Of a stretch of DNA of 46,462 bases, positions 11,996 to 34,213 are shown piece by piece (the stretch's first letter is position 1; the number at the start of each line of letters is the position of its first letter). The notes under the pieces are model-generated. The model searched no databases and had not been told where the DNA came from. It saw nothing but the letters and a program-made list of their open reading frames with translations. Both the position numbers and the translations under genes were made by a program. This DNA is from Ruminococcus sp. (GTDB lineage: Bacteria > Bacillota > Clostridia > Oscillospirales > Ruminococcaceae): contig JAFXVT010000049.1 in the NCBI GenBank assembly GCA_017534835.1, positions 1 through 46,462 of the forward strand, in the 5' to 3' direction.

Positions 11996-13351
11996 TCAAT
12001 CGTTAACTATCCTGTAAAGCTTGTCCATTTCATACTGACAGGTCGCATGGTAGGAAACAAGCGGCTTGGTCTCATCATATCCGCGCCGCCGGAAGGTCAT
12101 CGCACAAACAGTATCGCCGATGTTTCCTTCAGCGAACATCGCACATTCATCGAAGCAGTAAGCTGTTCCGAGCGTGGGATCAAGATAATACAGGGCTTCT
12201 TCGGATCTATCCGACACAAAAGCTGTCAGAAGTATACCGTCCCCTGCCTGTCTGACAGTGCCGTAACGAAGGGCGTCCGCATTCATTTTCAGGCACTCGC
12301 GTCGATCGATGTCATAGGTATACATTCGCGATGCATAATTATCAAAGGCAAAAACGACCATTTTATCACGCCACATCAGAATATCAGTAAAGTTTGCGTG
12401 ATCGCTCTGAATGCTGTAATACTGCGTTTTTACGGTCATTGATGACATATCGTCAGCGCATATCACCTCAGCAGGGATACCCTCGCAGAAGTACGCATTC
12501 TCACTATCTGCGCCGGACACGAACGGGTCGTCCAAAAGCTCACTGACCTCCCCTGTTGAGAGATCGTATTCAACACAGCTACGGGGAGCCCACTCGCCGT
12601 GATATAAGGCGGCAACGATGCCTTTTTCCGTGCCTTTCATCTCGATGACAGAACCGTCGAGCTCGCACAGCTTCTTCTCTGTGCCGCTCTTCGTATCAAA
12701 GATGTAGATGCTCGACTTTTTCTCACCGGAAATGTCCGATGAATCGTAATATACCGGCTCGCCGTTCAGCTCCATAATACCGTCAAAGCAGCCGCCGTAT
12801 CCGAGACCGGTATGCTTCACGAGCTCCTTCAATTCGCCGGTCTCAGCATCGTATGAAAAGAGCGACGAATCGTGACAGCCGCAGTGGTCATCGTAATTTA
12901 CGCAAAGATAGTATTTGCCGCCGATGAAGATATAGTTTTCAACGAAGCCTTCACACGGCTCCGAAAGAAGCTCATTGTACGCCTTATCGTAAACCGGATC
13001 ATCGACAACAGATCTGTGGCTGTAATTATCGCACACGTCCTCAGCCTTGCACGGTGACAGCCTTTTGCCGAGGTCGAGACCGGTGAGGTCGACAGCCTCG
13101 ATCTTTATCGGCGGCTCCTTTTCGACGATGTTCGTTTTTATGTTTATCGGAGCAAAATCCGCTTCTTTCAGTTCAGGTACAGTCGGAACAGACTCTTCCG
13201 CCGATGAAGTATCGCCCGTGACCGGAGCTTCCGCCTCGCTGACAGAAGCTGTCACGTCCTCGACTATGTCATCATCGACAGGCTTGTCCTCGCAGCCGCA
13301 CATCATAGCCAGAAAAGCCATAACAGCAGCAAGTGCAGTTATCCTTTTCAT
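11996..13351 (-). CDS. Lipoprotein with beta-propeller-like repeats
   Basis: 451 residues. Signal peptide II: MKRITALAAVMAFLAMMCGC with the lipid-modified Cys at residue 20. A Ser/Glu/Thr-rich spacer follows to about residue 70. From about 90 on there are recurring blades in which a tyrosine- and aspartate-rich strand is followed by a turn (YYLCVNYDDHCGCHDSS, FSYDAETGEL, YIFDTKSGTE, YTYDIDRREC), reminiscent of DUF5050/TolB-type propellers. It may bind a ligand or partner at the membrane surface; no enzyme motif seen. AGGAGG and a consensus promoter set this start; an in-frame ATG 23 codons upstream lies inside that promoter. Single-gene transcript ended by repeat unit D. Confidence 0.85.
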   Translation of the reverse strand: MKRITALAAVMAFLAMMCGCEDKPVDDDIVEDVTASVSEAEAPVTGDTSSAEESVPTVPELKEADFAPINIKTNIVEKEPPIKIEAVDLTGLDLGKRLSPCKAEDVCDNYSHRSVVDDPVYDKAYNELLSEPCEGFVENYIFIGGKYYLCVNYDDHCGCHDSSLFSYDAETGELKELVKHTGLGYGGCFDGIMELNGEPVYYDSSDISGEKKSSIYIFDTKSGTEKKLCELDGSVIEMKGTEKGIVAALYHGEWAPRSCVEYDLSTGEVSELLDDPFVSGADSENAYFCEGIPAEVICADDMSSMTVKTQYYSIQSDHANFTDILMWRDKMVVFAFDNYASRMYTYDIDRRECLKMNADALRYGTVRQAGDGILLTAFVSDRSEEALYYLDPTLGTAYCFDECAMFAEGNIGDTVCAMTFRRRGYDETKPLVSYHATCQYEMDKLYRIVND

Positions 13352-13391
13352 CAGATACGCCTCCTTACAGAGCAGATTTGATACTGTCCAT

Positions 13392-13420
13392 ATTATAGCA
13401 CAGCTGCTCCCATATTGCAA
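13392..13420 (-). promoter_or_regulatory. Sigma-A promoter of the propeller-like lipoprotein
   Basis: Minus-strand TTGCAA, 17 bases, TATAAT, 41 bases upstream of the ATG and starting just past the end of the preceding operon, with no terminator between. Confidence 0.8.
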
Positions 13421-13428
13421 CAGAGACT

Positions 13429-14055
13429 TTATATATGCTCAGAAATGAAACGGCACGTCAGCCGTGTCAGCGTCTGCGCCATCCCACGGAGATACCGCAC
13501 CGGTTCAAACGGCGTCATATAGCCGTCATCGGGAGCATCTCCGCGGAGTATCCTGCCCTCGAAGTATTCGTTCCCGCGGAGAAGCCTGTCGATGTCGGGA
13601 ATTGAATACCGCCAGTACGGACGCTCCATTTTCACGGCTCCGCTGAGCTCAATGCACCGCGCAGTGAAGGACATACAATTATCGGCGTGCGCTATCCGGA
13701 ATCCGCCTATCAGCGGCATTGTCGCCATAGAAAAGACATTGAAGAGCATATCCCCGTCCTCTTCGCAGGCTCTGATATATCCGAGCACCTCTTCGTACCT
13801 CTCATCTGCTACAGTAAGCTCAAATATCTTCGCGCGGAAGTCACTGTGAGCTCCGAAGGCATAGTAATGACGGTATTCGTGGGTAATGCCGGCTTCAAAC
13901 GGGAAATAGTGATACCTCCGCGAAAAGCTGATGAGATCGGTCATAGACGGGTCAAGACTGACAGCGATGTGAGTGTAGGGATAGTGCGTTATGCACCTCG
14001 CCGCAGCTCCGAGACCGGTGTGTGCCTTTATGAGCACGATATAAAGCTTTTTCAC
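13429..14055 (-). CDS. Permuted NlpC/P60-like (YiiX-type) cysteine hydrolase/acyltransferase homologue
   Basis: 208 residues, no signal peptide. The order of motifs fits the circularly permuted papain-like group: a His after a short strand (YPYTHIAVSLD, H29), an early AHTG turn (H12), the SFSRRYHYFPFEAGITHE region, and later a Cys at the head of a helix (HADNCMSFTARC, C127). Relatives are small clostridial proteins of unknown substrate; the wider fold includes lipid acyltransferases such as LRAT as well as amidases. It overlaps the CDP-alcohol phosphotransferase by 4 bases (ATGA), so translation is probably coupled, and it is the last gene of the lipid/phosphonate operon. That context favours a lipid or envelope substrate over a housekeeping one. 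Activity is unproven. Confidence 0.72.
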   Translation of the reverse strand: MKKLYIVLIKAHTGLGAAARCITHYPYTHIAVSLDPSMTDLISFSRRYHYFPFEAGITHEYRHYYAFGAHSDFRAKIFELTVADERYEEVLGYIRACEEDGDMLFNVFSMATMPLIGGFRIAHADNCMSFTARCIELSGAVKMERPYWRYSIPDIDRLLRGNEYFEGRILRGDAPDDGYMTPFEPVRYLRGMAQTLTRLTCRFISEHI

Positions 14056-14723
14056 TTTTCAAGCTCCTTCAGTCTGCGGAAGAGCGCGATCGCCATTCTT
14101 ATCATCTCATAGTACATCGGTATAAGCGCGATGAGCATCAGTATATCTCCAGCCATAACACCGATACCGAACACCGTGAAGAGCGTGCGCGAGCCGAGTA
14201 TCATCGAGAGTATGCAGAATACCGAGTAGGCTATATGCGCCTCGATAGGTCCGAGACGCGGGAACTGGAATTCGTTGAAATAGATGATGTAGTTCATCAT
14301 CGTAACGTTCATCACGCCGTAGAGCGGTGCGCCGAACGCGGCGAGCTCGATATGCGCATACGGTGTGAGACCGAAAGCAAGTATCAGGAATGTGGAAATG
14401 AGTACATCGCTGATGAGGTCGTAATAAGCTCCGGCGCGCGATGACATTCCGCGTGAACGTGCAACGTAGCCGTCGAGGACATCGGCAGTCATATGTACGA
14501 AGAGTCCGGCAATGGTGCCGATGAAGAACAGCGGCGAGATGTTCGCAAGGAATGCGAAGATTATTGCTGCCGCTCCGCCGAGGACACCGACTGTTGTTAC
14601 CATATTCGGTGTTGCGCTCTTGGGTATGAATCTGCCGAGAAGCTTGTACATAAGCTTCTGATAGCCTGTTTCAAGCTTGCTCGGGATGAGTTTTTTTACC
14701 GGGTTTTTGTATGGTTCTGACAT
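14052..14723 (-). CDS. CDP-alcohol phosphatidyltransferase family membrane enzyme
   Basis: 223 residues with several membrane helices (about 41-60, 64-80, 107-125, 145-160, 165-200). The full family signature is present: D81-x2-D84-G85-x2-A88-R89-x8-G98-x3-D102-x3-D106, the metal-binding aspartates for CDP-alcohol chemistry. The family either joins CDP-diacylglycerol to an alcohol or joins a CDP-activated head group to diacylglycerol. Its place beside a CTP-dependent phosphonate activation gene suggests the second mode, with a CMP-phosphonate as donor; this is inference. Starts 1 base after the radical SAM stop, with GGAGG formed by that gene's last codons. Its length and order of motifs are ordinary for the family. 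Confidence 0.88.
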   Translation of the reverse strand: MSEPYKNPVKKLIPSKLETGYQKLMYKLLGRFIPKSATPNMVTTVGVLGGAAAIIFAFLANISPLFFIGTIAGLFVHMTADVLDGYVARSRGMSSRAGAYYDLISDVLISTFLILAFGLTPYAHIELAAFGAPLYGVMNVTMMNYIIYFNEFQFPRLGPIEAHIAYSVFCILSMILGSRTLFTVFGIGVMAGDILMLIALIPMYYEMIRMAIALFRRLKELEK

Positions 14724-14724
14724 A

Positions 14725-16062
14725 TTATCCTCCGAATCCGAACAGGTTCTTCACCATTGAACCGATAAAGAATCTGTAGTCGATAAAATCGTATATCCCC
14801 TGCCTCCACGCGCGCAGGAAGAGAGATATGAGCAGTATGTGATAGCAGAAATAGTAGCCTCTGACAGAGAGCCTTGACGGCTTCGCAACGACGTGGAGAT
14901 AGTCCCAGTGGGAAGGGTCGCGCGTGATAAGCCTGCCGCGGTATTCCTTTATGAGCTCGGTGTTCATCTCCGGCGTGAAAATGGACACGGCAACGTGCCG
15001 GAGGTCATTCTTTCTCACCCATTTCCAGATGTTTAGGAAATCGGCAGCTGTGTAGTCGAGGTCGACGATGAAGAGTCCCATTGCATATATCCCGAGAGAA
15101 TTGAGGATACGTACCGCCTCTGTATTCACTGAGTTGTCCGAGCGCTTCCCGTAGGCTTCAAGGTGACCGTCATCGGCAGCCTCTATCCCGACAAGGACGT
15201 AATACATACCTATATCGCGCAGCTTCCGCATAAGTCCGGGGTGAGCGGCGATGAAATCGGCTCTTCCGTAGCAGACGTAGCGCTTGCGGATATTCTTCTC
15301 CCGGACGAGCCTGATGAATTCCTCGAGCCGCTCCTCACCGAGCAGGAAATCGTCATCTGTGAAGTAGATGTTCTCGCAGTTTATCTGTGCTATCTCGTCA
15401 ACGACGTCAGCGATGTCACGCTGAGAATACACGCCGCAGTTCATTCTGTTCCTGATGCAGAAGCTGCACCTGTAGGGACAGCTGTATGCTGTACGGACCT
15501 GCGCTGCCGGAAGCAGCTCAAGATAGCGGTACCTGTCACTGTGCTCGTAGAAATAGGTGCGGTCGGGACGGATAAGCTTCCGTATATCGTGCGCGACAGC
15601 ACGGTTCATGACCCAGCGCCCGTCCCTTTTCCAGCAGAGCGAGCTGATATTCTCAGGCGAATCGCCGCGCAGCACATCTCTTATCGGATCGGTGTTAAAG
15701 CCTGTGAAAACGTAGTCGATATAGCCTGTGAAGAAGCGGCTGTAGCACCTCTGCGCGTGAAGTCCGCCTATCATCGTTACAGCTCCGGACTTCTTCGATA
15801 CAGCGGCATACTCCTTCATAAAATTCTCCTGACGGGTCCTGCCGCAGATGTAAACGACAGCAGGTCTGAGCTCCCGGAGCCTTTTCACAAACGGCACCTT
15901 CTCGACCTGTCCGTCCCAGATATAAGGCTGCCAGCCCTCCTGTACGAGCATCGCCCAGATATATTCGAGCTCAAGCGGCTCATTGTCGATTATGCCTGCG
16001 AAATTGTACTTTGTACGCGAGATCTCGGGGTGAACGAGAAGGACCTTTCTGTTTTCTTTCAT
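14725..16062 (-). CDS. B12-binding-type radical SAM enzyme
   Basis: 445 residues. Residues about 5-135 form a Rossmann-like cobalamin-binding-type domain (KVLLVHPE, then VVYICGRT and MIGGLHAQR), although the DxHxxG histidine motif is not visible. The radical SAM barrel carries the cluster motif C195-PYR-C199-SF-C202 and the GIEAADDG segment. The C-terminal 60 residues include an amphipathic or hydrophobic stretch (FCYHILLISLFLRAW), suggesting membrane contact. Cobalamin radical SAM enzymes methylate unactivated carbons or rearrange lipids; Fom3, which acts on cytidylyl-hydroxyethylphosphonate, belongs to this wide class. The ATG at 16062 is chosen because GGAGG lies 9 bases upstream, at the end of the acyl-CoA ligase gene; upstream in-frame codons only re-read that gene. 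Confidence 0.85.
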   Translation of the reverse strand: MKENRKVLLVHPEISRTKYNFAGIIDNEPLELEYIWAMLVQEGWQPYIWDGQVEKVPFVKRLRELRPAVVYICGRTRQENFMKEYAAVSKKSGAVTMIGGLHAQRCYSRFFTGYIDYVFTGFNTDPIRDVLRGDSPENISSLCWKRDGRWVMNRAVAHDIRKLIRPDRTYFYEHSDRYRYLELLPAAQVRTAYSCPYRCSFCIRNRMNCGVYSQRDIADVVDEIAQINCENIYFTDDDFLLGEERLEEFIRLVREKNIRKRYVCYGRADFIAAHPGLMRKLRDIGMYYVLVGIEAADDGHLEAYGKRSDNSVNTEAVRILNSLGIYAMGLFIVDLDYTAADFLNIWKWVRKNDLRHVAVSIFTPEMNTELIKEYRGRLITRDPSHWDYLHVVAKPSRLSVRGYYFCYHILLISLFLRAWRQGIYDFIDYRFFIGSMVKNLFGFGG

Positions 16063-16067
16063 ACAGC

Positions 16068-17696
16068 TCAGCCTCCATTCTTGAGTTCGTTGTACGCTAT
16101 CTTTCCGACGAGAGTTTTCGGCAGCGAATCGTAGAAGAGCATCTCCCTCGGAAGCGCATATCCGGCGATATTCTCCCTCAGCGCCGCCATCAGCTCCCCA
16201 CGGAGCTTCTCCTTGTCCGTGCCTTCCTTCGCGACTACGCACGCTCTCACCTTCTCGCCGCGAAGCTGGTCGGGAACTCCCACAACGGCGCACATAATGA
16301 CATCGCTGTGTGAGCTTATGACATCCTCGATGTTCTGCGGATAGATGTTGTAGCCGCTCGAAACTATCATACGCTTCAGGCGCTGGCGGAAGTAAACATA
16401 GCCGTTTTCGCCGATACAGCCGATGTCGCCCGTATGCAGCCAGATATAGCCGTCATCGCGCAGTTTCAGAGTAGCAGCAGTCTCATCGGGTTCCTTGTAA
16501 TAGCCCTTCATCACCGTCGGACCGCGGAGTATGATCTCACCCTCCTCACCGGCAGGGAGCTCATTTCCCTCACTGTCGATGACCTTGTAAAAGGTATCGG
16601 GATAAGGCAGACCTACGCTGAGAAGGTCGTCATAGCTCTCGGGCATAAGGCAGCTTCCGGTAACACATTCGGTGAGTCCGTAGCCCTCTCTCACCTTCAC
16701 ACGGCAGCCGTGCCCGGCAAGCATATCGTTGAGCTTTTTCTTCGTCGAAGGTGCGAGCGAATCTCCGCCCGAAACGATACATTTCAGGAAATCGAGCCTC
16801 TTTCCGTCGAAGCTCTTGTTGATTATCATTGCCTCGAATATCGCAGGGACTCCGGCGATGATATCCGGCTTATAGCGGAAGAGCAGCTTGTGGAAATCCG
16901 CCGCCGAGAATTTCGGCTGCAATACAGCCGTTCCGCCGAGCACCATCATCGTGTGTATGCATACACCGAGTCCGAAGCCGTGGAATACAGGCATTACCGA
17001 CAGCATTTTCATACCGGCTCTGAGACCGCCGCAGGCTTCGATGCTCTGCAATGCGAGCGCATTGAAGTTCAGATTCGTCAGCATTATGCCCTTCGGACGT
17101 CCTGTAGTGCCGCCGCTGTAGAGGATAGCGGCAGTCTCGTCCGCAGATGTGCGGCAGACCCCGGGAGCGATACCGTTCCCGGCAGAGATGAACGTTTTCC
17201 AGTCGCGGATACTGCTCTTCGGCGGCTTTTTTTTATTCGTGACGCTGTAGCCTATTTTTATGTGGATAGGCATACTGTCGCTTACACTTATCTTTACTGC
17301 GTCAAGTCCGCTGCACTTCGCCATTACGCGCTCTATCTTATCAGCGATGAGATCAACGGCGAATATCAGCCTGCTCCCGGTGAGCTCAACGAAGCGGACT
17401 ATCTCATTTTCCGCAGACATCGGGTGTATCATATTCGCAACGCCGCCTATCATATTCACCGCATAGAACAGATATACCGCCTCAGGCGTATTCGGCAGAC
17501 AGATGGATACTGCGTCGCCGCGCTTCACACCGGCAGCTGTCAGTGCTCCGGCACATTTCTTTATCTCGGAGATAAGTCCGCTGTAGCTGACGCTTTTTCC
17601 GAAGTAATCGAGTGCGCAGTATCCGGGATATTCCGCTGCCCTGCGCTCTATCAGCTCATATATGGTACAATCCGGATATTCTATGTGTCTTTTCAT
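16068..17696 (-). CDS. Acyl-CoA synthetase / fatty acid-AMP ligase
   Basis: 542 residues, a complete ANL-superfamily adenylating enzyme. Motifs: YSGGTTGRPKG (P-loop-like A3, about 190-200), YGLTE (A5), HTGDIG with downstream RLKRMIVSSGYNIYP (A7-A8), and the catalytic lysine in TLVGKIAYNE near residue 532. It activates a carboxylic acid, most likely a fatty acid, to acyl-AMP and then acyl-CoA. Start overlaps the stop of the acyltransferase gene by ATGA; 5 bases separate its stop from the radical SAM ATG. In this operon it can feed acyl groups to the PlsC-type protein or charge an unusual acid; chain length cannot be read from the sequence. Confidence 0.92.
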   Translation of the reverse strand: MKRHIEYPDCTIYELIERRAAEYPGYCALDYFGKSVSYSGLISEIKKCAGALTAAGVKRGDAVSICLPNTPEAVYLFYAVNMIGGVANMIHPMSAENEIVRFVELTGSRLIFAVDLIADKIERVMAKCSGLDAVKISVSDSMPIHIKIGYSVTNKKKPPKSSIRDWKTFISAGNGIAPGVCRTSADETAAILYSGGTTGRPKGIMLTNLNFNALALQSIEACGGLRAGMKMLSVMPVFHGFGLGVCIHTMMVLGGTAVLQPKFSAADFHKLLFRYKPDIIAGVPAIFEAMIINKSFDGKRLDFLKCIVSGGDSLAPSTKKKLNDMLAGHGCRVKVREGYGLTECVTGSCLMPESYDDLLSVGLPYPDTFYKVIDSEGNELPAGEEGEIILRGPTVMKGYYKEPDETAATLKLRDDGYIWLHTGDIGCIGENGYVYFRQRLKRMIVSSGYNIYPQNIEDVISSHSDVIMCAVVGVPDQLRGEKVRACVVAKEGTDKEKLRGELMAALRENIAGYALPREMLFYDSLPKTLVGKIAYNELKNGG

Positions 17697-18325
17697 TTTC
17701 TCTCCCAGCTTTCATATGTGGTAAAATGCTTCTGCCTGAGTTCTTCCTCGGACATCGCCTTTCTCAGCAGACAGGCGACAGCTCCGTAGAGTTTGCGGTT
17801 CGTCTTTTCGGGAGTATCCTCCGCCTTCATCGGCTTGCCGAAAATGACTCTCAGCCTGTGCTTCGGGAACAGCGAATAATCCCCGGCGATAGCATATGGA
17901 ACTATCACTGCTCCGGTGCGCTCAGCCATCACTGACGCTCCGAACTTGAACGGAAGCAGCAGCTCATCTGTGTAATTCCGCTTTGCCTCGGGCGAAACAT
18001 TCACGAGCTCGCCGTTACCGAGAGCCTCCACAGCCGCTTCAAGTGCGGCAGGGTTATGCTTTGCGCGGAGGTCGACCGGTATAGTCCCGGCAGCTCTGAA
18101 AAGGAAGCCAAAACGCGAATCGTGGAGGTCCTTCTTTGCGAGAGTCCTCACGACGCGCCGCGTTGAAATGTCGATAAGGAGCGGATCGAAGGCGTGCTTA
18201 TGATTGCCTGCAATAACAGCAGGACCGTCCTCGGGAATGTTTTCCCTTCCTATTATCACCGGTCTGTACAGCACCCGGAATACAGGAGCAAGTATGAGCT
18301 TTGCCGCCTTGTATGCATTGTACAT
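17693..18325 (-). CDS. plsC: 1-acyl-sn-glycerol-3-phosphate acyltransferase (PlsC-type)
   Basis: 210 residues. The LPLAT signature HX4D is at H42-D47 (NHKHAFDP). The second block reads VSPEAKRN instead of the usual FPEGTRS, keeping the Glu and one basic residue, which may mean a different acceptor. A last block, VPYAIAGDY, resembles the VPV motif. It should place an acyl chain on a lysophospholipid or glycerol phosphate at the inner membrane face. First gene of the leftward operon, 40 bases from a perfect consensus promoter. Start at 18325 chosen for AGGAG eight bases upstream and the amphipathic MYNAYKAAKLIL opening; the upstream in-frame start has no ribosome site. A second, housekeeping plsC probably exists elsewhere in the genome. 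Confidence 0.88.
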   Translation of the reverse strand: MYNAYKAAKLILAPVFRVLYRPVIIGRENIPEDGPAVIAGNHKHAFDPLLIDISTRRVVRTLAKKDLHDSRFGFLFRAAGTIPVDLRAKHNPAALEAAVEALGNGELVNVSPEAKRNYTDELLLPFKFGASVMAERTGAVIVPYAIAGDYSLFPKHRLRVIFGKPMKAEDTPEKTNRKLYGAVACLLRKAMSEEELRQKHFTTYESWERK

Positions 18326-18364
18326 TTCCGCCACTCCTCTCCGATTTTTACACACACATCATTC

Positions 18365-18393
18365 ATTATAGTATTCCGACACTGTTTTGTCAA
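18365..18393 (-). promoter_or_regulatory. Perfect sigma-A promoter of the lipid operon
   Basis: Minus-strand TTGACA, 17 bases, TATAAT. The match is exact, so without a repressor the five-gene operon should be strongly expressed. Confidence 0.88.
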
Positions 18394-18434
18394 CAGCGCG
18401 GCTTCCCCTCTGCTTATATCATACTGCACTCAGG

Positions 18435-18458
18435 ACATTTTTGGCAGATGAAAAATGT
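18435..18458. promoter_or_regulatory. Inverted repeat between the divergent operons, possible operator
   Basis: ACATTTTT, 8 bases, AAAAATGT: a perfect 8-base inverted repeat midway between the two promoters (18365-18393 and 18501-18529). It has the size of a dimeric repressor site and could control both operons, but no regulator gene is adjacent. Confidence 0.35.
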
Positions 18459-18500
18459 AATTTCAGGAGTGACATTCGTAACATATCAGTCTGTTTGAGA

Positions 18501-18529
18501 TTGATTTGTACAGCACAGTGTGCTATAAT
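18501..18529 (+). promoter_or_regulatory. Sigma-A promoter of the phosphonate operon
   Basis: TTGATT, 17 bases, TATAAT, 32 bases before the pepM ATG; GGAGG precedes the ATG by 8 bases. Confidence 0.82.
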
Positions 18530-18561
18530 GGTATCACGATACAAAGACTGGAGGTACAACA

Positions 18562-20577
18562 ATGCAAGCACTGATCCTCGCTTCGGGAATGGGCACAAGA
18601 ATGGGTGCCCTGACCGCAGACAGACCCAAATGTATGACGCCTCTGCCGGACGGTGAGACCATATTGAGCCGTCAGCTCCGCCAGCTCATAAGCGCCGGTA
18701 TACAGCGGATAGTGATAACTACCGGAGCATTCGCAGATGTGCTCACCGGATATGTGAGCTCTCTTTCGCTGAGCGCCGAGATAGTATTCGTACACAATCC
18801 GGAATTTGCTTCCACCAATTATATATACTCGATGCACCTTGCCGGAAGCTCGCTCTCCGGCGATATGCTCCTTATCCACGGCGACCTCGTTTTCGAGGAT
18901 ACGGTACTGGATATGATAGCCGGCAGCCGCGAAAGTGCCATGGCAGTCAGCACTACTCTTCCGCTGCCGGAAAAGGACTTCAAGGCTGTCATCGAAGAGG
19001 ACAGGATAACGGCTGTAGGTATTGGTTTCACCGAGAATGCCGCAGCTGCTCAGCCGCTTTACAAGCTGCTCGACTCCGACAGAAGGATATGGTTCGCGAA
19101 AATAGCCGAATATTGCAGCAGCGGCGATGAAGCCAAACGGAAATGCTACGCCGAGAACGCCTTCAATGAGGTCTCGGAGAGCTGCTGCATACGTCCCGTC
19201 GACTTCACAGGTCTGCTCTGCTCCGAGATAGACGACCCGAGCGACCTTGAAGCAGTTTCGGCTGAGCTGGAAAAGCTCAGAAGCAGAAGCGTTTATATGT
19301 GCTTCTCATCTGATTTCATACACAGCGGACATATCAGAATGATACGCAGAGCTGCCAAGCTCGGCAGGCTCACAGTCGGCATAATGACTGATGAAGCCGT
19401 CACAGCCTACAAGCATTTTCCGCTCGTCCCATACGATGAGAGAGCACAGCTTTTCGGCAATATAAACGGAGTTGCCGAGGTCACTGCACAGGAAACGCTC
19501 AGCTACAGAAAGATACTTTCAACGCTCCGTCCCGATATAGTCGTCCACGGAAGCGACTGGAGAAACGGCTTTCAGCAGCCGGTCCGCAGCGAGGTCATAT
19601 CTGTGCTGAGCAGTTACGGCGGAAAGCTCGTGGAATTCCCCTTCTCCGACGACAAAATCACGTCCGCTGCCGAGATGGAAATGAGAGCCGAGCTCGCTCT
19701 TCCCGACCATCGCCGCGGCATTCTCAGAAAGCTCCTCGCAGTGAAGCGTCCGGTCACGGCGATAGAGGCTCACAGCGGACTCACCGGACTTATCGCCGAA
19801 AACTCGCGTGTATACGAGAACGGGAGCGTCCGGCAGTTCGATGCGATGTGGATCTCGTCGCTGTGCGATTCGACCTCACGCGGCAAGCCGGACATCGAGC
19901 TTGTCGATCTGACAGCGAGGATGAGGACAGTGAACGAGATAATGGAGGTCACAACAAAGCCTGTCATATTCGACGGCGACACAGGCGGACTCACCGAGCA
20001 CTTCGTCTACACCGTCCGCACCCTTGAACGCACAGGTGTTTCAATGGTCATTATCGAGGACAAGACCGGACTGAAAAAGAATTCGCTCTTCGGCACGGAG
20101 GTCGCTCAGACTCAGGCTGATACAGATGAATTCTGCCGCAAGATAACTGCCGGAAAAAACGCGCTCAAGACCGATGAGCTTATGATATGTGCGCGCATCG
20201 AAAGTCTCATACTCGGAAAGGGATCCGATGATGCGCTTGCACGGGCGCACGCATACGTTGCTGCCGGAGCAGATGCGATAATGATACACAGCAGGAGCAG
20301 CTCGCCAGATGAGGTGCTCGTATTTGCAAGGAGCTTCCGCGAGACAAACAGCTATACTCCGCTTGTCTGCGTCCCGACGAGCTATTGCTCCGCGACTGAG
20401 GAGGAGCTCAGCAGCGCCGGTATCAACATCGTGATATACGCCAATCAACTCACACGCTCTGCTTTTCCTGCGATGCAGAAAGCAGCAGACTCGATTCTCC
20501 GCACACACTCAGCCGCGGAATGCGACAGTATGTGTATGCCGTTCAAGGAGATAATAAGACTTATACCGGAGGAATGA
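18562..20577 (+). CDS. pepM: Three-module PntC/LicC-type nucleotidyltransferase - cytidylyltransferase - phosphoenolpyruvate mutase
   Basis: 671 residues. Residues 1 to about 235 are a sugar-nucleotidyltransferase-like domain of the LicC/PntC type: GMGTR at 9-13, RPK at 21-23, STNYIYSM, and HGDLVF with the metal Asp. Residues about 245-375 are an HxGH-class cytidylyltransferase: HSGH at 254-257 and HGSDWRNG, like the N-terminal half of Fom1. Residues about 385-671 are PEP mutase with the diagnostic EDKTGLKKNS at 499-508 (EDKxGxKxNS). The mutase isomerises PEP to phosphonopyruvate, forming the C-P bond. The other domains should activate a phosphonate or related phosphate with CTP. Both nucleotidyltransferase motif sets look intact. 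Two-domain PepM fusions are known; carrying both kinds of transferase in one chain is unusual to my knowledge. First gene of a tight three-gene operon. Confidence 0.93.
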   Translation: MQALILASGMGTRMGALTADRPKCMTPLPDGETILSRQLRQLISAGIQRIVITTGAFADVLTGYVSSLSLSAEIVFVHNPEFASTNYIYSMHLAGSSLSGDMLLIHGDLVFEDTVLDMIAGSRESAMAVSTTLPLPEKDFKAVIEEDRITAVGIGFTENAAAAQPLYKLLDSDRRIWFAKIAEYCSSGDEAKRKCYAENAFNEVSESCCIRPVDFTGLLCSEIDDPSDLEAVSAELEKLRSRSVYMCFSSDFIHSGHIRMIRRAAKLGRLTVGIMTDEAVTAYKHFPLVPYDERAQLFGNINGVAEVTAQETLSYRKILSTLRPDIVVHGSDWRNGFQQPVRSEVISVLSSYGGKLVEFPFSDDKITSAAEMEMRAELALPDHRRGILRKLLAVKRPVTAIEAHSGLTGLIAENSRVYENGSVRQFDAMWISSLCDSTSRGKPDIELVDLTARMRTVNEIMEVTTKPVIFDGDTGGLTEHFVYTVRTLERTGVSMVIIEDKTGLKKNSLFGTEVAQTQADTDEFCRKITAGKNALKTDELMICARIESLILGKGSDDALARAHAYVAAGADAIMIHSRSSSPDEVLVFARSFRETNSYTPLVCVPTSYCSATEEELSSAGINIVIYANQLTRSAFPAMQKAADSILRTHSAAECDSMCMPFKEIIRLIPEE

Positions 20578-20580
20578 AAT

Positions 20581-21702
20581 ATGTCAGAACAGATAATCCT
20601 TCGCGGAAACGAGAGCTACAGCGAGCTGAGGAGGCTCCTCTCAGCACCGGGAGCAAAAAAGCTCTTCCTCGTCTGCGGAGGTTCACTGAAAAACACACCA
20701 ACAGGAAGATTTTTTTCCGCGGTCGAGGCTGAGGATAATGCCGCTATCGTAAGATTCAGCGGATTTTCGCCGAATCCGGACTATGATGAGATAGTCAGCG
20801 GAGTTCGTCTCTTCCGTGAGAGCGGCTGCGGCATCATCTGCGGCGCAGGCGGCGGAAGTGCCATCGACACGGCAAAATGCATAAAGCTCTTCGCGGATAT
20901 GCCCGATGACCGCGATTACGTTCTTCAGGAGGCTGTCCCGAACGGTATCCCGCTCATAGCGATACCGACTACAGCCGGCTCGGGAAGCGAAGCTACACAC
21001 TTTGCAGTCATTTACTACAACGGAAAAAAATTCTCGATAACGGATAACAGCTGCCTTCCGCAGACCGTCCTTCTCGACCCGGAGAATCTCGCGACGCTGC
21101 CCGATAAACACAGAAGAGCGGCAATGCTCGATGCGCTCTCTCACGCGATAGAATCTATGTGGTCGGTGAGGTCGACTGACGAGAGCCGCGAGCTCTCGCG
21201 CTGTGCCATAAAAACAGTCATCAGGGCAATGGACGGCTATGTCAGCGGAGACAACAGCTGCGCGGAGGATATGATGGATGCTGCCTTCACAGCCGGACGT
21301 GCAATAAATATCACCGCGACGACTGCCGGTCACGCGATGAGCTATATGCTGACAAAAATGTACGGACTTCCACACGGTCACGCAGTCTCGCTCTGTCTGC
21401 CGGAGGTGTGGCGCTTTATCGCCGAAAACGCAGACAAATGCTCCGACAGCCGCGGCTGCTCTCATTTGCAGAAGATACTCGGTGAGCTGCCGGAGCTCCT
21501 CGGCTGTGAGGATACCGGCTCTGCTGTCGCTTTTATAAAGGAGCTGCCCGAAAAGCTCGGACTTGCTGCTCCTGCCGATATAAAGCCGGGGGACATCGAC
21601 GCACTTGCGGCTTCCGTGAATCCGGAAAGGCTCAGAAATACGCCTGTTGTGCCCGATACGGAAGCAATTCGTGAAATGTATCTGAATATACTCGGGAGGT
21701 AA
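20581..21702 (+). CDS. Iron-containing alcohol dehydrogenase, probable phosphonoacetaldehyde reductase
   Basis: 373 residues, a full group III (iron) alcohol dehydrogenase. The dinucleotide-binding GGGSAIDTAK is at 90-99, followed by PTTAGSGSEAT; the metal ligands lie in DALSHAIE and in the two His of GHAMSYMLTKMYGLPHGHA. In phosphonate clusters this family (FomC, PhpC) reduces phosphonoacetaldehyde to 2-hydroxyethylphosphonate with NAD(P)H. Its place between PEP mutase and phosphonopyruvate decarboxylase, with 3- and 4-base gaps, makes that role very likely here; no aminotransferase for 2-aminoethylphosphonate is in the window. GGAGG before the ATG. Confidence 0.9.
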   Translation: MSEQIILRGNESYSELRRLLSAPGAKKLFLVCGGSLKNTPTGRFFSAVEAEDNAAIVRFSGFSPNPDYDEIVSGVRLFRESGCGIICGAGGGSAIDTAKCIKLFADMPDDRDYVLQEAVPNGIPLIAIPTTAGSGSEATHFAVIYYNGKKFSITDNSCLPQTVLLDPENLATLPDKHRRAAMLDALSHAIESMWSVRSTDESRELSRCAIKTVIRAMDGYVSGDNSCAEDMMDAAFTAGRAINITATTAGHAMSYMLTKMYGLPHGHAVSLCLPEVWRFIAENADKCSDSRGCSHLQKILGELPELLGCEDTGSAVAFIKELPEKLGLAAPADIKPGDIDALAASVNPERLRNTPVVPDTEAIREMYLNILGR

Positions 21703-21706
21703 TAAA

Positions 21707-22822
21707 ATGCTTGCTGAAAGATTCATCGACATCATCGGTGCCGGCTTCTACACCGGAGTCCCCGACAGCGCTCTGCGAGGTCTGTGCGACTGTCTTTATG
21801 ACCGCTTCGGCATCGACGGAGCAGCCCATATCATCGGCGCAAACGAGGGAAACTGTGCTGCCATTGCCGCCGGCTATCATCTTGCAACGGGCAGGCTCCC
21901 GGTCGTGTATATGCAGAATTCCGGCGAGGGAAATATCATTAATCCGGCTGCGAGCCTGCTCAGCAGGGACGTCTACGGCATACCCGTGCTGTTTGTCATC
22001 GGCTGGCGCGGCGAGCCCGGTTTCCGCGACGAGCCTCAGCACGCATTTCAGGGAAAGGTCACGCTCAGTCTGCTCGATACTATGGAGATACCGTACAAGG
22101 TCATAAGCGAGGATACGACCGAGGACGAGCTCAGCAGCACAATTGACGGATTCCGCAGCATTTTCGCTCAGGGCGGACAGGCAGCGCTCGTTGTCCGCAG
22201 CGGAGCCCTGAAATACAGCCGCAGGGTGACATACAAAAATTCGTATACCCTCACGCGCGAGGAAGCGATAAGACGCATTATCAGCGTCACAGCCAGTGAC
22301 CCCGTCATTGCGACTACCGGCAAGGCAGGGCGCGAGCTTTATGAGCTCCGCGAGGCTCTCGGGCAGGGACACAGCCGCGATTTTCTTACTGTCGGCTCAA
22401 TGGGTCACTGCTCGTCGATAGCGCTCGGTATCGCGATGAATTCAACGAAAAAGGTGTGGTGCATCGACGGCGACGGAGCTGCGCTGATGCATATGGGAGC
22501 GATGTCTGTCATCGGTGCGAAGGCTCCCGAAAACCTCGTTCATATCGTCATAAACAATGAGGCTCACGAATCTGTCGGAGGTATGCCGACCTCCGCGAAA
22601 TGTACCGGTCTTCCGGCTGTTGCTGAAGCGTGCGGCTACAGGAATGTCTGCACGGTAAAAACAGCTGATGAGCTCGACAGTGCTCTCGCAAAAGCCGTGG
22701 ACAGCAGCGTGCTCACATTCATAGAAGTAAAGGCTGCGATAGGTGCAAGAGCTGACCTCGGACGTCCGGCGTCAACGCCTGAGCAGAACAAAACAGCCTT
22801 CACCGGACACCTCAGAAAATGA
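21707..22822 (+). CDS. ppd: Phosphonopyruvate decarboxylase (thiamine diphosphate-dependent)
   Basis: 371 residues, the usual length for the single-chain enzyme. The N-terminal half has the TPP pyrimidine-side Glu (GANEGNCAAIAAGYHLATG) and NSGEGN; the C-terminal half has the TPP/Mg site GDGAALMHMGAMS...INN. It decarboxylates phosphonopyruvate to phosphonoacetaldehyde, the irreversible step that pulls the unfavourable PEP mutase reaction forward. Last gene of the operon with pepM and the alcohol dehydrogenase, GGAGG before the ATG, and a strong terminator 4 bases past the stop. Confidence 0.95.
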   Translation: MLAERFIDIIGAGFYTGVPDSALRGLCDCLYDRFGIDGAAHIIGANEGNCAAIAAGYHLATGRLPVVYMQNSGEGNIINPAASLLSRDVYGIPVLFVIGWRGEPGFRDEPQHAFQGKVTLSLLDTMEIPYKVISEDTTEDELSSTIDGFRSIFAQGGQAALVVRSGALKYSRRVTYKNSYTLTREEAIRRIISVTASDPVIATTGKAGRELYELREALGQGHSRDFLTVGSMGHCSSIALGIAMNSTKKVWCIDGDGAALMHMGAMSVIGAKAPENLVHIVINNEAHESVGGMPTSAKCTGLPAVAEACGYRNVCTVKTADELDSALAKAVDSSVLTFIEVKAAIGARADLGRPASTPEQNKTAFTGHLRK

Positions 22823-22825
22823 AAT

Positions 22826-22862
22826 GATCCCACGTAAGGAACCGACCTTACGTGGGATCTTT
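22826..22862 (+). terminator. Terminator of the phosphonate operon
   Basis: Perfect 14-bp stem GATCCCACGTAAGG / CCTTACGTGGGATC with a 6-base loop, then TTTCT. The AraC gene converges on it from the other side. Confidence 0.88.
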
Positions 22863-23639
22863 CTATTGCTTGTCCTTCCGGAATTTTGCAGGCGATACGC
22901 AGGCGTATTTCTGGAATACACGCGAGAAGTGCGAATAATCCGAATATCCGCATTTGTCCGCGACCTCGGCTGCGGAGAGGTCTGTGCTGCTGAGGAGCTG
23001 CTTTGCGAGCTCCATACGGCTCGTGAGTATGTCCTTCGTGCAGGAGATACCGTAGCGCTGCTTGTACAGCCTCTGAAAATGTGCCACGGACAGGCTGAGC
23101 TTTTCAGCGATCAGCGGTATAGTCCAGTCAGTTGCAGGCGAACTATAGATCTGCCGGCGAATGGAATCGAGCTCGATGTCGTAATGCGTCCGGACAGCCT
23201 TGGTGTTCGGGACGTAGCATCTCTTTATCTGGTAGATGACAGCGTTCATCAGCGCTCGCTCGGTCTCCTCCCTGCACGGCGCCTCCGCGGAGGCTACATC
23301 TGCACAGACCGATATCAGCCGTGAAACTATGTCAGAATCGAGCTGTATCGGTGCATTGAATTCTATCCCGAGCTCCTCGATGAACTGCTTGTCATTGTCC
23401 TCAAGCTCGAAGCGCACCCAGTCATCCATATACTCCTCGCCATCGGCGTGTATCTCGTGGGGAACGCAGGTATCCACGACAAATACCGTATTAGCTCCGA
23501 CGGTGTACTCATTCCCGCCCATTACGATACGTCCGCGTGACTGAACGAGTATCACCTGCATACCGTGAACGCCGTCGGGGCGGACGATACTCAGGTCAGC
23601 AGGGTGCTTCCAGTGCCAGCCTGCCATATTTATACGCAT
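22863..23639 (-). CDS. AraC-family transcriptional regulator
   Basis: 258 residues. N-terminal cupin-like sensor (about 10-130; GRIVMGGNEYTVGANTVFVV and PHEIHADGEEYMDDWVRFEL), then two helix-turn-helix motifs in the C-terminal 100 residues with the AraC signature VADKCGYSDYSHFSRVFQKYACVSPAKFR. Such regulators bind a sugar or oligosaccharide and usually activate. It is divergent from the PL11 rhamnogalacturonan lyase gene, 207 bases apart, so it probably controls that gene in response to pectin breakdown products. GGGAGG precedes the ATG; its own promoter is a perfect consensus. Confidence 0.92.
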   Translation of the reverse strand: MRINMAGWHWKHPADLSIVRPDGVHGMQVILVQSRGRIVMGGNEYTVGANTVFVVDTCVPHEIHADGEEYMDDWVRFELEDNDKQFIEELGIEFNAPIQLDSDIVSRLISVCADVASAEAPCREETERALMNAVIYQIKRCYVPNTKAVRTHYDIELDSIRRQIYSSPATDWTIPLIAEKLSLSVAHFQRLYKQRYGISCTKDILTSRMELAKQLLSSTDLSAAEVADKCGYSDYSHFSRVFQKYACVSPAKFRKDKQ

Positions 23640-23846: not shown

Positions 23847-26432
23847 ATGAAACACACGAAAAAACTGGCAGCTTCACTGACGGCGCTCGCGCTGGTCACA
23901 TCTGCGGCAGATACGTTCTGTCTGCCTGTTGTATCTGAGGCTGCCTACGGAGTCGGCGGAAACGGCAAGGCTGTGATGGAGTACCTCGACAGAGGCATCT
24001 ACGCCGTAAAAAGCGGCAGCGGTATGTTCGTAAGCTGGCGCTGGAATGCAGATGATGCGGACGATGCGGAGTTCAGGCTTTACCGCGACGACAAGCTCAT
24101 CTACACGAGCAAAAAGGGCGACCCGACCTGCTATCAGGACAACGGCGGAGCAGCCGGCTCGAAGTACCGCGTAGACTGCATCGAGGGCGGAAAAGTCACA
24201 TCGTCACAGAACTGCAAATTCAACTCGGGCAATAACTATTTCGATATCAAGCTCAACAGCCCGGGAAGCCAGTATTCGCCGAATGACGCCTGCGTAGGAG
24301 ATGTTGACGGCGACGGACAGTACGAGATATTCCTCAAGTGGGACCCTTCCAATTCGAAGGACAACTCGCAGTCCGGCAAGACCGACGACGTCATCATCGA
24401 CTGCTACACCCTCGACAGCAAGCAGCTCTGGAGGATAAACCTCGGCAGGAATATCCGCGCCGGTCAGCATTACACTCAGATGTGTGTTGCTGATTTCGAC
24501 TGCGACGGAAAGGCTGAGCTCATCACCAAAACTGCCGACGGCACTAAGGACGGCAAAGGCAAGGTCATTGGAAATGCGAGCAAGGACTACCGCAACGGAA
24601 ACGGCTATATCCTTGACGGTCCCGAATATATGACTCTCTTCGACGGCAAGACAGGTGCAGCTCTTGACACGATAAACTTCCCCGTGCCGCGCGGAAAGGT
24701 CAGCGACTGGGGCGACAATTACGGCAACCGCGTCGACCGTATGAACAGCGGTATCGCCTACCTCGACGGCGTTCACCCGTCTGCGATCTACGGCAGAGGC
24801 TATTACACAAGACTCACGTGGTCCGCTGTGGACGTCAGAGACGGCAAGCTCTCGGTAAGGTGGATATACGATTCCACATTCAACAGGAACACTCCCGGCT
24901 GGGGCTGCGGAAACCACAACGTAATGGTCGCGGACTGTGACAACGACGGCAAACAGGAGGTATTCACCGGCGCTAACTGTATCGACGACAACGGAAAGCT
25001 CCTGTGGACCTCGGGCGACCTCCACGGCGACGCTATGCACGTCGGCGACCTTATCCCGGACAGAGAGGGACTTGAGGTCTGGGAGTGCCACGAGGACAGA
25101 CCCTACGGCGAATCCTGCTACGACGCAAAGACTGGCAAGGAGATATTCCACATCAACAACAGCAAGGATACCGGACGCTGTGCTGCCGACAACATCTGGG
25201 CAGGCAGCAAGGGCGCGGAATTCTGGGGCGCCGCAGACGGAAACGTCTATAACTCCGCCGGCAAGAAGATAGGCGGAACAAAGCCTGCTCAGAACTTCTT
25301 CATCTACTGGGACGGCGACCTCGAGCGTGAGATACTCGACGGCAACAAGATCTCAAAAATGACCGATGCAAACAAGATAGACCGTATCTTCACAGCGAAT
25401 GGCTGCGGTACGAACAACAGCTCCAAATCCGTTCCCTGTATGACTGCCGACCTCTTCGGCGACTGGCGCGAGGAGCTCATCCTGCGGACTGACGACAATA
25501 CGAAGCTGCGTATATGGTGTACAACAGCCGCAACTAAGGTACGCCTGACGACACTTATGCACGATATGCAGTACAGAGCACAGAACTGCTGTCAGCAGTC
25601 GGCATACAACCAGCCTCCGCACGTCAGCTACTACCTCGGAAGTGATGCTCCCCTGCCTGCGAGACCAAAGGTGCTCCTCAACAACTCACCGGTAAAGACA
25701 GATATACCCGATGAACCGGTAACGACCGAGCCTGCAACTACTACGGCAGAGCCCGTAACTACCACGACTGTAACAGCAGTCAAACCTGAAATTCCTGCTC
25801 CTCCTTCGGAGATCGCTGACGGAGAGATATATACATTCCGCAGCGCCTCCGGAAACCTCTATCTCGGAGCAGACGGCGAAGCAGTTGAAAACAATACGAA
25901 TATAGCCCTTTCAGCCCAAAACGGAGCTAAGAACCAGTTCAGGGCAGTCGCCGCCGGAGACGGTTACTTCTACCTCATCTCACAGCTCGGCGACGGAAGC
26001 TCCTATGCTCTTGACGTACACGCCAAAAAGCCCGATGACGGCACTAACATCGAGCTCTACACATTAAAGAACGGCGAAAATCAGCAGTTCAGATTCATAA
26101 GGAACAGCGACGGCTCGTACACGATAGCTACAAGAATATCCGGCGACAAGTCCTGTCTCGCTGCCTCAGCGGACGGCAATGTTCAGGAATGGACATCAGA
26201 TGGTTCGGCACAGCAGCGCTGGTTCATCGAGCCTGCCTCAGCACAGCAGGATCCTGATGGCGATGTGAACCGCGACGGTGTGTTCAATGTCGCAGACGCT
26301 GTAGTGCTCCAGAAGTGGCTGCTCGGCTCACGCGATACATCGCTCGCAGACTGGAAGGCTGCCGACCTGTGCAGGGACGGCGTTGTAGATGCGTTCGACC
26401 TCTGCCTGATGCGTCAGAAACTGACAGCATAA
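23847..26432 (+). CDS. Secreted PL11 rhamnogalacturonan lyase with ricin-type CBM13 and dockerin
   Basis: 861 residues. Signal peptide about 1-31. Residues about 35-610 form the PL11 eight-bladed propeller with repeated calcium loops (DVDGDGQYEIF, DFDCDGKAEL, DCDNDGKQEVF) and the conserved HTVN-type segment reading GCGNHNVMVADCDNDG. A Thr/Pro linker (about 620-650) leads to a ricin-like beta-trefoil (about 655-795; repeated LD or LA then QQ(W/F)R). The C-terminal dockerin (about 800-861) has two loops, DVNRDGVFNVAD and DLCRDGVVDAFD. It cleaves rhamnogalacturonan I backbones by beta-elimination outside the cell, attached to a cellulosome. GGAGG precedes the ATG; divergent AraC gene likely regulates it. 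Confidence 0.94.
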   Translation: MKHTKKLAASLTALALVTSAADTFCLPVVSEAAYGVGGNGKAVMEYLDRGIYAVKSGSGMFVSWRWNADDADDAEFRLYRDDKLIYTSKKGDPTCYQDNGGAAGSKYRVDCIEGGKVTSSQNCKFNSGNNYFDIKLNSPGSQYSPNDACVGDVDGDGQYEIFLKWDPSNSKDNSQSGKTDDVIIDCYTLDSKQLWRINLGRNIRAGQHYTQMCVADFDCDGKAELITKTADGTKDGKGKVIGNASKDYRNGNGYILDGPEYMTLFDGKTGAALDTINFPVPRGKVSDWGDNYGNRVDRMNSGIAYLDGVHPSAIYGRGYYTRLTWSAVDVRDGKLSVRWIYDSTFNRNTPGWGCGNHNVMVADCDNDGKQEVFTGANCIDDNGKLLWTSGDLHGDAMHVGDLIPDREGLEVWECHEDRPYGESCYDAKTGKEIFHINNSKDTGRCAADNIWAGSKGAEFWGAADGNVYNSAGKKIGGTKPAQNFFIYWDGDLEREILDGNKISKMTDANKIDRIFTANGCGTNNSSKSVPCMTADLFGDWREELILRTDDNTKLRIWCTTAATKVRLTTLMHDMQYRAQNCCQQSAYNQPPHVSYYLGSDAPLPARPKVLLNNSPVKTDIPDEPVTTEPATTTAEPVTTTTVTAVKPEIPAPPSEIADGEIYTFRSASGNLYLGADGEAVENNTNIALSAQNGAKNQFRAVAAGDGYFYLISQLGDGSSYALDVHAKKPDDGTNIELYTLKNGENQQFRFIRNSDGSYTIATRISGDKSCLAASADGNVQEWTSDGSAQQRWFIEPASAQQDPDGDVNRDGVFNVADAVVLQKWLLGSRDTSLADWKAADLCRDGVVDAFDLCLMRQKLTA

Positions 26433-26647: not shown

Positions 26648-26789
26648 TCGCCCATTCCATACATAATATCACGAATACAGATAATGATCAATATACCATA
26701 GGTCTATTTTTCACTGAGGTCTCATTCTGCGCAGATCGCAGCTAATGGATAAAAATATAAAATTATTTGTAAATTATCCCGTAAAACTC

Positions 26790-26818
26790 TTGACAATCGT
26801 GCACTTTATTGATATAAT
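26790..26818 (+). promoter_or_regulatory. Sigma-A promoter of the LRR dockerin gene
   Basis: TTGACA, 17 bases, TATAAT, exact consensus, 92 bases before the ATG. It rules out the upstream in-frame ATG at 26745. Confidence 0.88.
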
Positions 26819-26909
26819 TTATCAAACAGAGCCGGCATTTTTGGTGAAATGTAATATCTGTTATCGTTATTACAGGCTGTTTATTTTCCGATACGGAAGG
26901 AGTGTTTAT

Positions 26910-34150: not shown

Positions 34151-34213
34151 ATACACTACCTCCGACATCTTAGGTCAGGAATTGACGCCGAACAGTTTCA
34201 ACTCGTTATACTG

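Follow-up and report, generated by a model that had tools for sequence, protein, structure and literature searches.

A Ruminococcus Gene Cluster as a Candidate Kennedy-Type Route to a Glycerophosphonolipid

Introduction

Treponema denticola has a cytidine diphosphate (CDP)-choline (Kennedy) pathway consisting of LicAC and a diacylglycerol cholinephosphotransferase (PMC6805115). In fosfomycin biosynthesis, Fom1, Fom2, and FomC make cytidine monophosphate (CMP)-2-hydroxyethylphosphonate (CMP-HEP) (PMC8158854). Rice et al. (2019) counted 42 triple fusions of PepM, the phosphoenolpyruvate (PEP) mutase, with PF12804 and PF01467 among 1485 Ppm proteins, and proposed that CMP-phosphonates are captured by carbohydrate or lipid nucleophiles (PMC6697681). 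The concept of CMP-phosphonates feeding cell-surface lipids or glycans is thus already published. A sphingophosphonolipid has been described in Bdellovibrio/Bacteriovorax stolpii (PMC6148460). All four papers are represented here by excerpts. We analyzed a 46,462-nucleotide stretch of Ruminococcus sp. DNA (contig JAFXVT010000049.1; hereafter, the window) in which a phosphonate-synthesis operon faces a lipid-assembly operon. The locus probably encodes a Kennedy-pathway-like route to a glycerophosphonolipid, via CMP-HEP to diacylglycerol, a prediction that rests on sequence comparison.

If this prediction is true, Ruminococcus has, in compact and conserved form, the genes for a bacterial glycerophosphonolipid, and these supply the missing last step, from CMP-phosphonate to lipid, for pathways described up to activation (PMC6697681). 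A sequence-only reading of the window knew of no described bacterial locus of exactly such make-up. That statement held: in a full-text literature collection with few subscription papers, none of the titles and abstract openings among the matches listed describes the gene set. The main text of PMC6697681 has 0 occurrences of "alcohol phospho" and of "Ruminococc".

Results

Proposed Pathway and CTP Activation

The eight genes form two divergent operons, an observation of the sequence-only reading that open reading frame (ORF) prediction and Pfam and NCBIfam searches confirmed, with the same positions (Table 1). The rightward operon contains pepM, an iron alcohol dehydrogenase gene (Fe-ADH), and the phosphonopyruvate decarboxylase gene ppd. 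The leftward operon (hereafter, the cassette) encodes a PlsC-like acyltransferase, an acyl ligase, a B12-radical S-adenosylmethionine (SAM) protein, a CDP-alcohol phosphotransferase, and an NlpC-like protein. In the proposed pathway, PEP mutase would form phosphonopyruvate, Ppd would convert it to phosphonoacetaldehyde, and Fe-ADH would reduce the aldehyde to 2-hydroxyethylphosphonate (HEP). Next, cytidine triphosphate (CTP) would activate HEP to CMP-HEP through a cytidylyltransferase domain that is part of PepM, and the CDP-alcohol phosphotransferase would move the phosphonate from CMP onto the hydroxyl of a diacylglycerol-type acceptor. The acyl chains are probably determined by the NlpC-like protein together with the PlsC-like protein and the ligase, an Aas-like pair; the radical SAM protein may tailor the lipid or the CMP-phosphonate.

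The EDKTGLKKNS sequence by which PEP mutase had been recognized lies at amino acids 499-508 and conforms to the EDKXXXXXNS motif of PEP mutases; the protein scores 383.2 bits against TIGR02320 (cut-off 319.55). Two further Pfam domains, NTP_transf_3 at amino acids 3-128 and CTP_transf_like at 251-344, had been overlooked. The middle domain of PepM matches the solved structure 5x3d at E = 4e-37 and carries HSGH, an HxGH motif, at amino acid 254. We take 5x3d (entry name phosphoenolpyruvate phosphomutase) to be the cytidylyltransferase (CyTase) domain of Fom1. The first domain matches 6pd1, a nucleotidyltransferase-aminotransferase that is presumably T. denticola PntC-AEPT, at 2.9e-8 and LicC (1jyk) at 4.4e-6. 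CTP activation of the phosphonate, previously argued from general knowledge only, would be encoded in the locus itself, because pepM is fused to these two cytidylyltransferase-like domains.

Distribution of the Cassette and Its Co-occurrence with PepM

The source genome (2.56 Mb in 67 contigs, the window being contig C4) has its closest relatives, by contig search, in Ruminococcus and R. flavefaciens, many of rumen or gut origin. Relatives of the cassette were found through the CDP-alcohol protein, which gave 24 loci in the GTDB contig collection (identity to the closest homologs at most 84%), 13 matches at 1e-5 among 297 genomes of the family (8 of them strong), and 3 at 1e-30 among 391 genomes of the class (the source genome and two of other families). 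The merged set comprises 33 cassette loci. G158 and G316 have the same coordinates, so the pair enters this set, and every count of distinct genomes, a single time. Carriers include the isolates R. albus 8, AR67, and KH2T6. All five cassette genes are present in 29 of the 33 loci. Two of the incomplete ones are L027, whose contig begins inside the CDP-alcohol gene, and L025, which keeps a C-terminal piece of the radical SAM gene, with nothing that matches the cassette between this piece and the upstream end of the contig. The piece in L025 (1-1740) comprises only the last 67 residues; a 497-amino-acid ORF upstream of it matches no window protein, which indicates an interrupted gene or a misassembly.

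PepM was found in 29/31 cassette-genome entries (28 above the cut-off; 28/30 distinct genomes), lying elsewhere in the genome where it is unlinked, and the source genome, G645, and G699 carry one as well. The PntC-like domain is likewise present in 29/31 cassette genomes. In one draw of 297 family genomes, we scored PepM at a minimum of 250 bits (34 genomes above the cut-off plus G021 and G117) and the cassette as a CDP-alcohol match below 1e-60, leaving out five weaker matches (5e-7 to 7e-6). PepM occurred in 7/8 genomes with the cassette versus 29/289 without it (Fisher p = 1.6e-6). Counted by genus, the same draw gave 6/6 versus 23/120 (Fisher p = 9.6e-5). Among five genomes of the window's own genus, two have both cassette and PepM and three have neither.

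We called a cassette linked when a PepM, PntC, ADH, or Ppd match lay on the stretch examined around it (7-21 kb). A phosphonate gene adjoins the cassette in 17 of the 33 loci, and 2 (L004 and L045) are cut off at the cassette; the unlinked count includes L013, L017, L019, L025, and L027, whose stretch ends no more than ~3 kb from the cassette on one side. A recount of 32 of the loci agreed with these tallies. The divergent triple-fusion PepM of the window recurs in L005-L007, L010, and L011. Only ADH and Ppd stand beside the cassette in L008 and L009; in L018, L020, and L106 the phosphonate genes follow it downstream. L046 has PepM, Ppd, PntC, and ADH as stand-alone genes, and L047 has CyTase-PepM with Ppd and PntC. 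A PntC-ADH fusion accompanies PepM and Ppd in L041 and is the sole phosphonate gene beside the cassette in L043; L016 and L044 have just PntC there. L106, from genome G645 of another family, has the order PlsC-radical SAM-CDP-alcohol phosphotransferase-NlpC-(LysE-like)-PepM-ADH-Ppd. The recurrence of the parts in varied layouts argues for a functional relationship and not shared descent alone. The pairing of pepM with the lipid genes that the window had suggested is borne out across genomes as co-occurrence, which is stronger than linkage, the genes adjoining in only about half of the loci. The LysE-like transporter gene of L106 (9611-10375, by eye) lies between the lipid cassette and pepM.

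The CDP-Alcohol Phosphotransferase

The signature D(x2)DG(x2)AR(x8)G(x3)D(x3)D is intact in 30/30 aligned CDP-alcohol sequences (30 of the 33 loci). In a profile search of the Protein Data Bank (PDB), the top five matches were choline or choline/ethanolamine phosphotransferases (E 6e-6 to 3e-5), followed by a CDP-inositol enzyme (4.7e-5), AF2299 (1.2e-4), and CDP-diacylglycerol (CDP-DAG):serine enzymes (3e-4). This ranking favors transfer of the phosphonate from CMP to diacylglycerol, short of proof. The E-values that separate the donor types differ just 10-50 fold, however, and NCBIfam leans the other way: the matches are mainly CDP-DAG or inositol types (archaetidylinositol-phosphate and phosphatidylinositol-phosphate synthases, PgsA), all under the cut-off. 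Both facts count against Kennedy-type transfer, and the NCBIfam matches fit a reversed enzyme, which would pass phosphatidyl from CDP-DAG to the hydroxyl of HEP, in the manner of inositol-phosphate synthases, and leave a free terminal phosphonate. We regard the reversed reaction as decidedly unlikely, since choline/ethanolamine phosphotransferases outrank the CDP-DAG:serine enzymes and a CTP-activating domain accompanies nearly all cassettes. The idea that the gene encodes the genome's sole enzyme of its kind was rejected; the source genome has two other PF01066 proteins, one at 139 bits, and their presence speaks for the phosphonolipid reading.

Which Phosphonate

The identity of Ppd was upheld by its TIGR03297 score (Table 1). 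The best NCBIfam model for Fe-ADH is TIGR03405 (PsrA), at 165.8 bits under a cut-off of 423.7, so the protein is not classed as PsrA; it probably works like a phosphonoacetaldehyde reductase, and a Segatella copri protein annotated as such is 42% identical to it. No 2-aminoethylphosphonate (AEP) transaminase (TIGR03301) in the source genome scores above the cut-off (best match E 3.4e-10). A reductase without such a transaminase fits HEP, and for this genome the head group AEP was rejected. Of the 31 distinct cassette genomes, 22 have an ADH ortholog (E below 1e-45), and all 32 entries have some Fe-ADH match at 1e-20. In 16 of the 22 genomes with the ortholog, the PntC-like domain is fused to or adjoins ADH (11 through the triple fusion; G297, G314, and G117 as an adjoining gene; G289 and G260 by fusion), and in 6 the two are apart. 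The pairing suggests that PntC acts on the predicted ADH product, HEP. Fusions of the PntC-like nucleotidyltransferase to Fe-ADH were seen at L041:5178-7046 and L043:11143-13278 and parallel the nucleotidyltransferase-aminotransferase fusion of 6pd1.

The Radical SAM, Acyl, and NlpC-like Proteins

The radical SAM protein belongs to class B (B12) and retains CxxxCxxC in 27/27 aligned sequences (27 of the 33 loci). Its best NCBIfam models (HpnR, BchE, and PhpK) all fall under the cut-off, and it is not an HpnR (TIGR04367, 113.8 versus 650 bits). The gene adjoins the CDP-alcohol gene in 32/33 loci (in L025 only as the C-terminal piece), L027 being the 33rd. Because it keeps with the lipid genes even where PepM is elsewhere, a lipid substrate is slightly favored. 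Two other proposals would have it methylate CMP-HEP. In the first, the locus would make a soluble, fosfomycin-style phosphonate, the radical SAM protein methylating CMP-HEP and the lipid genes being incidental. Counterparts of Fom1, Fom2, and FomC are present beside the B12-radical SAM gene, and Fom3 methylates CMP-HEP (PMC8158854, from an excerpt), yet the place of the radical SAM gene next to the CDP-alcohol gene in nearly all loci, also where PepM lies elsewhere, and the lack of any FomD- or Fom4-like name among the matches listed for the cluster proteins, make this very improbable. The second would join the fosfomycin route up to its midpoint, with CMP-HEP methylated by the B12-radical SAM protein, to the Kennedy-type transferase; the product would be a membrane glycerolipid whose head group is 2-hydroxypropylphosphonate (or hydroxyethylphosphonate). 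We consider this variant unlikely.

No Fom3 reference could be named from the plasmid collections; the annotated proteins among the matches listed were BchE, HpnR, and other radical SAM/cobalamin proteins. The best match there, among those listed, lay within a set of four neighboring radical SAM-like genes of Acetoanaerobium. These stand in a row at A. noterae L110:6030-12039; by eye, one methyltransferase-like gene separates the first from the second, and three of the four proteins are 27-33% identical to the window protein. A membrane-spanning lipid synthase (Mss/Tes) was rejected as its identity: in a single-sequence search of solved structures, which included no direct Mss comparison, the single match up to E 0.1 was a tryptophan methyltransferase.

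The PlsC-like protein and the ligase look like the two parts of an Aas-type lysolipid acylation system. The PlsC-like protein matches PRK08633 at 5e-19, far under the cut-off. The NlpC-like protein had no match in Pfam (E 0.001) or NCBIfam (E 0.01), nor, as a profile, among PDB sequences up to E 1. Its His29 and Cys127 are invariant in 24/24 aligned sequences (24 of the 33 loci), His preceding Cys, as is NCxSF. The predicted model is confident (predicted local distance difference test score 90.4), and its fold matches are weak, none reaching E 0.001 (TseH, the best, 0.02; YiiX 0.17; 3kw0 0.26). Our guess is that it takes part in deacylation-reacylation with PlsC and the ligase. In L016, the sole locus uncut by a contig end that lacks the gene, one cysteine enzyme may have been replaced by another. 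The PntC-like domain of L016 (5136-6272) has a C-terminal stretch that resembles, by eye, a C39-type cysteine-peptidase domain.

Layout and Surroundings

Table 1. Features of the divergent phosphonate and lipid operons in the window
Feature	Position	Strand	Basis or remark
Lipid operon	13429-18355	-	five genes
NlpC/YiiX-like (permuted papain-like) protein	13429..14055	-	alignment and predicted fold
CDP-alcohol phosphotransferase	14052..14723	-	PF01066
B12-binding radical SAM protein	14725..16062	-	PF04055; PF02310 (33.9 vs cut-off 32.1 bits)
AMP-forming acyl-CoA/ACP ligase	16068..17696	-	PF00501, PF13193
PlsC-like acyltransferase	17693..18355	-	PF01553; HX4D motif; likely start ATG 18325
Promoter-like site, lipid operon	18365..18393	-	TTGACA-17-TATAAT, sigma-70-like, 12/12
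Promoter-like site, phosphonate operon	18501..18529	+	TTGATT-17-TATAAT with TG, sigma-70-like, 10/12
Phosphonate operon	18562-22822	+	pepM, Fe-ADH, ppd
pepM	18562..20577	+	PntC/LicC-like nucleotidyltransferase, ~aa 1-238; Fom1-CyTase-like cytidylyltransferase, ~aa 243-363; PEP mutase, aa 388-671
Fe-ADH, probable phosphonoacetaldehyde reductase	20581..21702	+	PF00465
ppd, phosphonopyruvate decarboxylase	21707..22822	+	TIGR03297, 442.1 bits vs cut-off 312.5
Terminator-like inverted repeat	22826..22859	both	bidirectional, 14 pairs; 3' of ppd, closes phosphonate operon

Neighboring genes within each operon overlap by 4 bases or lie 1-5 bases apart, the gaps in the phosphonate operon being 3-4 bases. 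The shared control region, given earlier as 236 bp, has that length if PlsC begins at the internal ATG, and measures 206 bp from the longer GTG ORF. The promoter and terminator calls are consensus matches, of which the region has 15 promoter-like (mean of 6.8 in shuffles) and 16 terminator-like (7.0). No Rfam match in the window reached the gathering score, and a riboswitch in the control region, for cobalamin or another ligand, was rejected.

Four dockerin-type cellulosome proteins are encoded next to the cluster. The first is a rhamnogalacturonan lyase of family 11 that also has ricin-type lectin and dockerin domains (23847-26432); the second is a long protein of repeats whose end looks dockerin-like by eye (26745-31406); the others are a beta-helix dockerin protein (32603-34168) and a dockerin protein of 374 amino acids (37541-38665). 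Between 38000 and 44000, G+C is 36-40%, versus 45-56% in other 2-kb bins. This part, possibly acquired, encodes an ATP-binding cassette transporter, a DUF4367 protein, and three proteins that match nothing in Pfam.

Discussion

The phosphonolipid interpretation, first put forward in the sequence-only reading, is favored by the co-occurrence of cassette and PepM, the encoded CTP activation, the ranking of the CDP-alcohol enzyme, and the presence of a reductase without an AEP transaminase. It is tempered by partial linkage and by the appearance of the upper genes in a glycan-type cluster as well.

Several further observations weigh against a HEP-bearing lipid as the common product. Two cassettes are short of a gene: the ligase is missing from L106 and the NlpC-like gene from L016. 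No phosphonate gene was found within the stretch examined in 14/33 loci; neither PepM nor the PntC domain was found in the cassette genomes G193 and G306; and PepM without the cassette is common, in 29 of the 297 genomes. An AEP transaminase scores above the cut-off in 2/32 entries (G260 and G314), with 3 more near 1e-41. The ADH ortholog is missing from 9/31 distinct cassette genomes, including the isolates R. flavefaciens ND2009 and SAb67, so HEP is not a possible head group there unless another reductase serves; nothing obvious, by eye, stands in for it beside PepM in L086, L087, L088, L092, and L079. The upper module is shared with a cluster of S. copri and is therefore, alone, no proof of a lipid product. 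Near unlinked PepM genes we noted, by eye, LicD-like (L084), sugar-epimerase-like (L077), and glycosyltransferase-like (L091) genes.

These neighbors would suit a polymer: the phosphonate would be bound for a surface polymer such as a polysaccharide, and the cassette would make a separate, ordinary lipid, the two standing together since both serve the envelope. The adjacency of triple-fusion PepM, Ppd, and reductase to CDP-glycerol transferase and O-antigen genes in S. copri supports this account, as do the 14 cassettes without a phosphonate neighbor. We nevertheless judge it unlikely. No glycosyltransferase or LicD type appeared among the ten proteins scanned across 11996-23639, the co-occurrence of PepM with the cassette persists when the two are unlinked, and PntC or PntC-ADH directly adjoins the cassette in L016, L043, and L044, whose PepM is elsewhere. 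The upper genes can be read as a module that supplies CMP-phosphonate, which different lineages direct to glycans or, here, to lipids. For a lipid carrying HEP, mass spectrometry alone could mislabel the product, because diacylglycerol-HEP is, by formula, an isomer of phosphatidylethanol, just as its head-group anion is of ethyl phosphate.

We know of no link between the sphingophosphonolipid of B. stolpii and the window's gene set. That lipid is, as excerpted, a bacterial lipid with a phosphonate head group, like the product predicted here, and unlike it has a sphingolipid backbone. The S. copri aepX-aepY-phosphonoacetaldehyde reductase cluster (NZ_CP085933.1) shares the upper genes with the window (triple fusion 59%, Ppd 48%, and reductase 42% identical) but continues with a CDP-glycerol glycerophosphotransferase and O-antigen genes, and a glycan target is likely there. 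The pnt pathways have the same fusion of PepM to PF12804 and PF01467, whereas their characterized enzymes, in the excerpted text, favor AEP and are encoded alongside LicD or glycosyltransferase genes (PMC6697681). The fosfomycin upper pathway (Fom1-Fom2-FomC-Fom3), also as excerpted, is alike in its PepM-CyTase, Ppd, alcohol dehydrogenase, and B12-radical SAM protein, and in the CMP-HEP intermediate predicted here; the window adds the PntC-like domain and the lipid-assembly genes. With the Kennedy pathway of T. denticola, as far as the excerpt describes it, the locus would share LicC-type CTP activation and a CDP-alcohol-domain transferase acting on diacylglycerol. It differs in that the activated group would be a PEP-derived phosphonate, and in the acyl, radical SAM, and NlpC-like genes attached to it.

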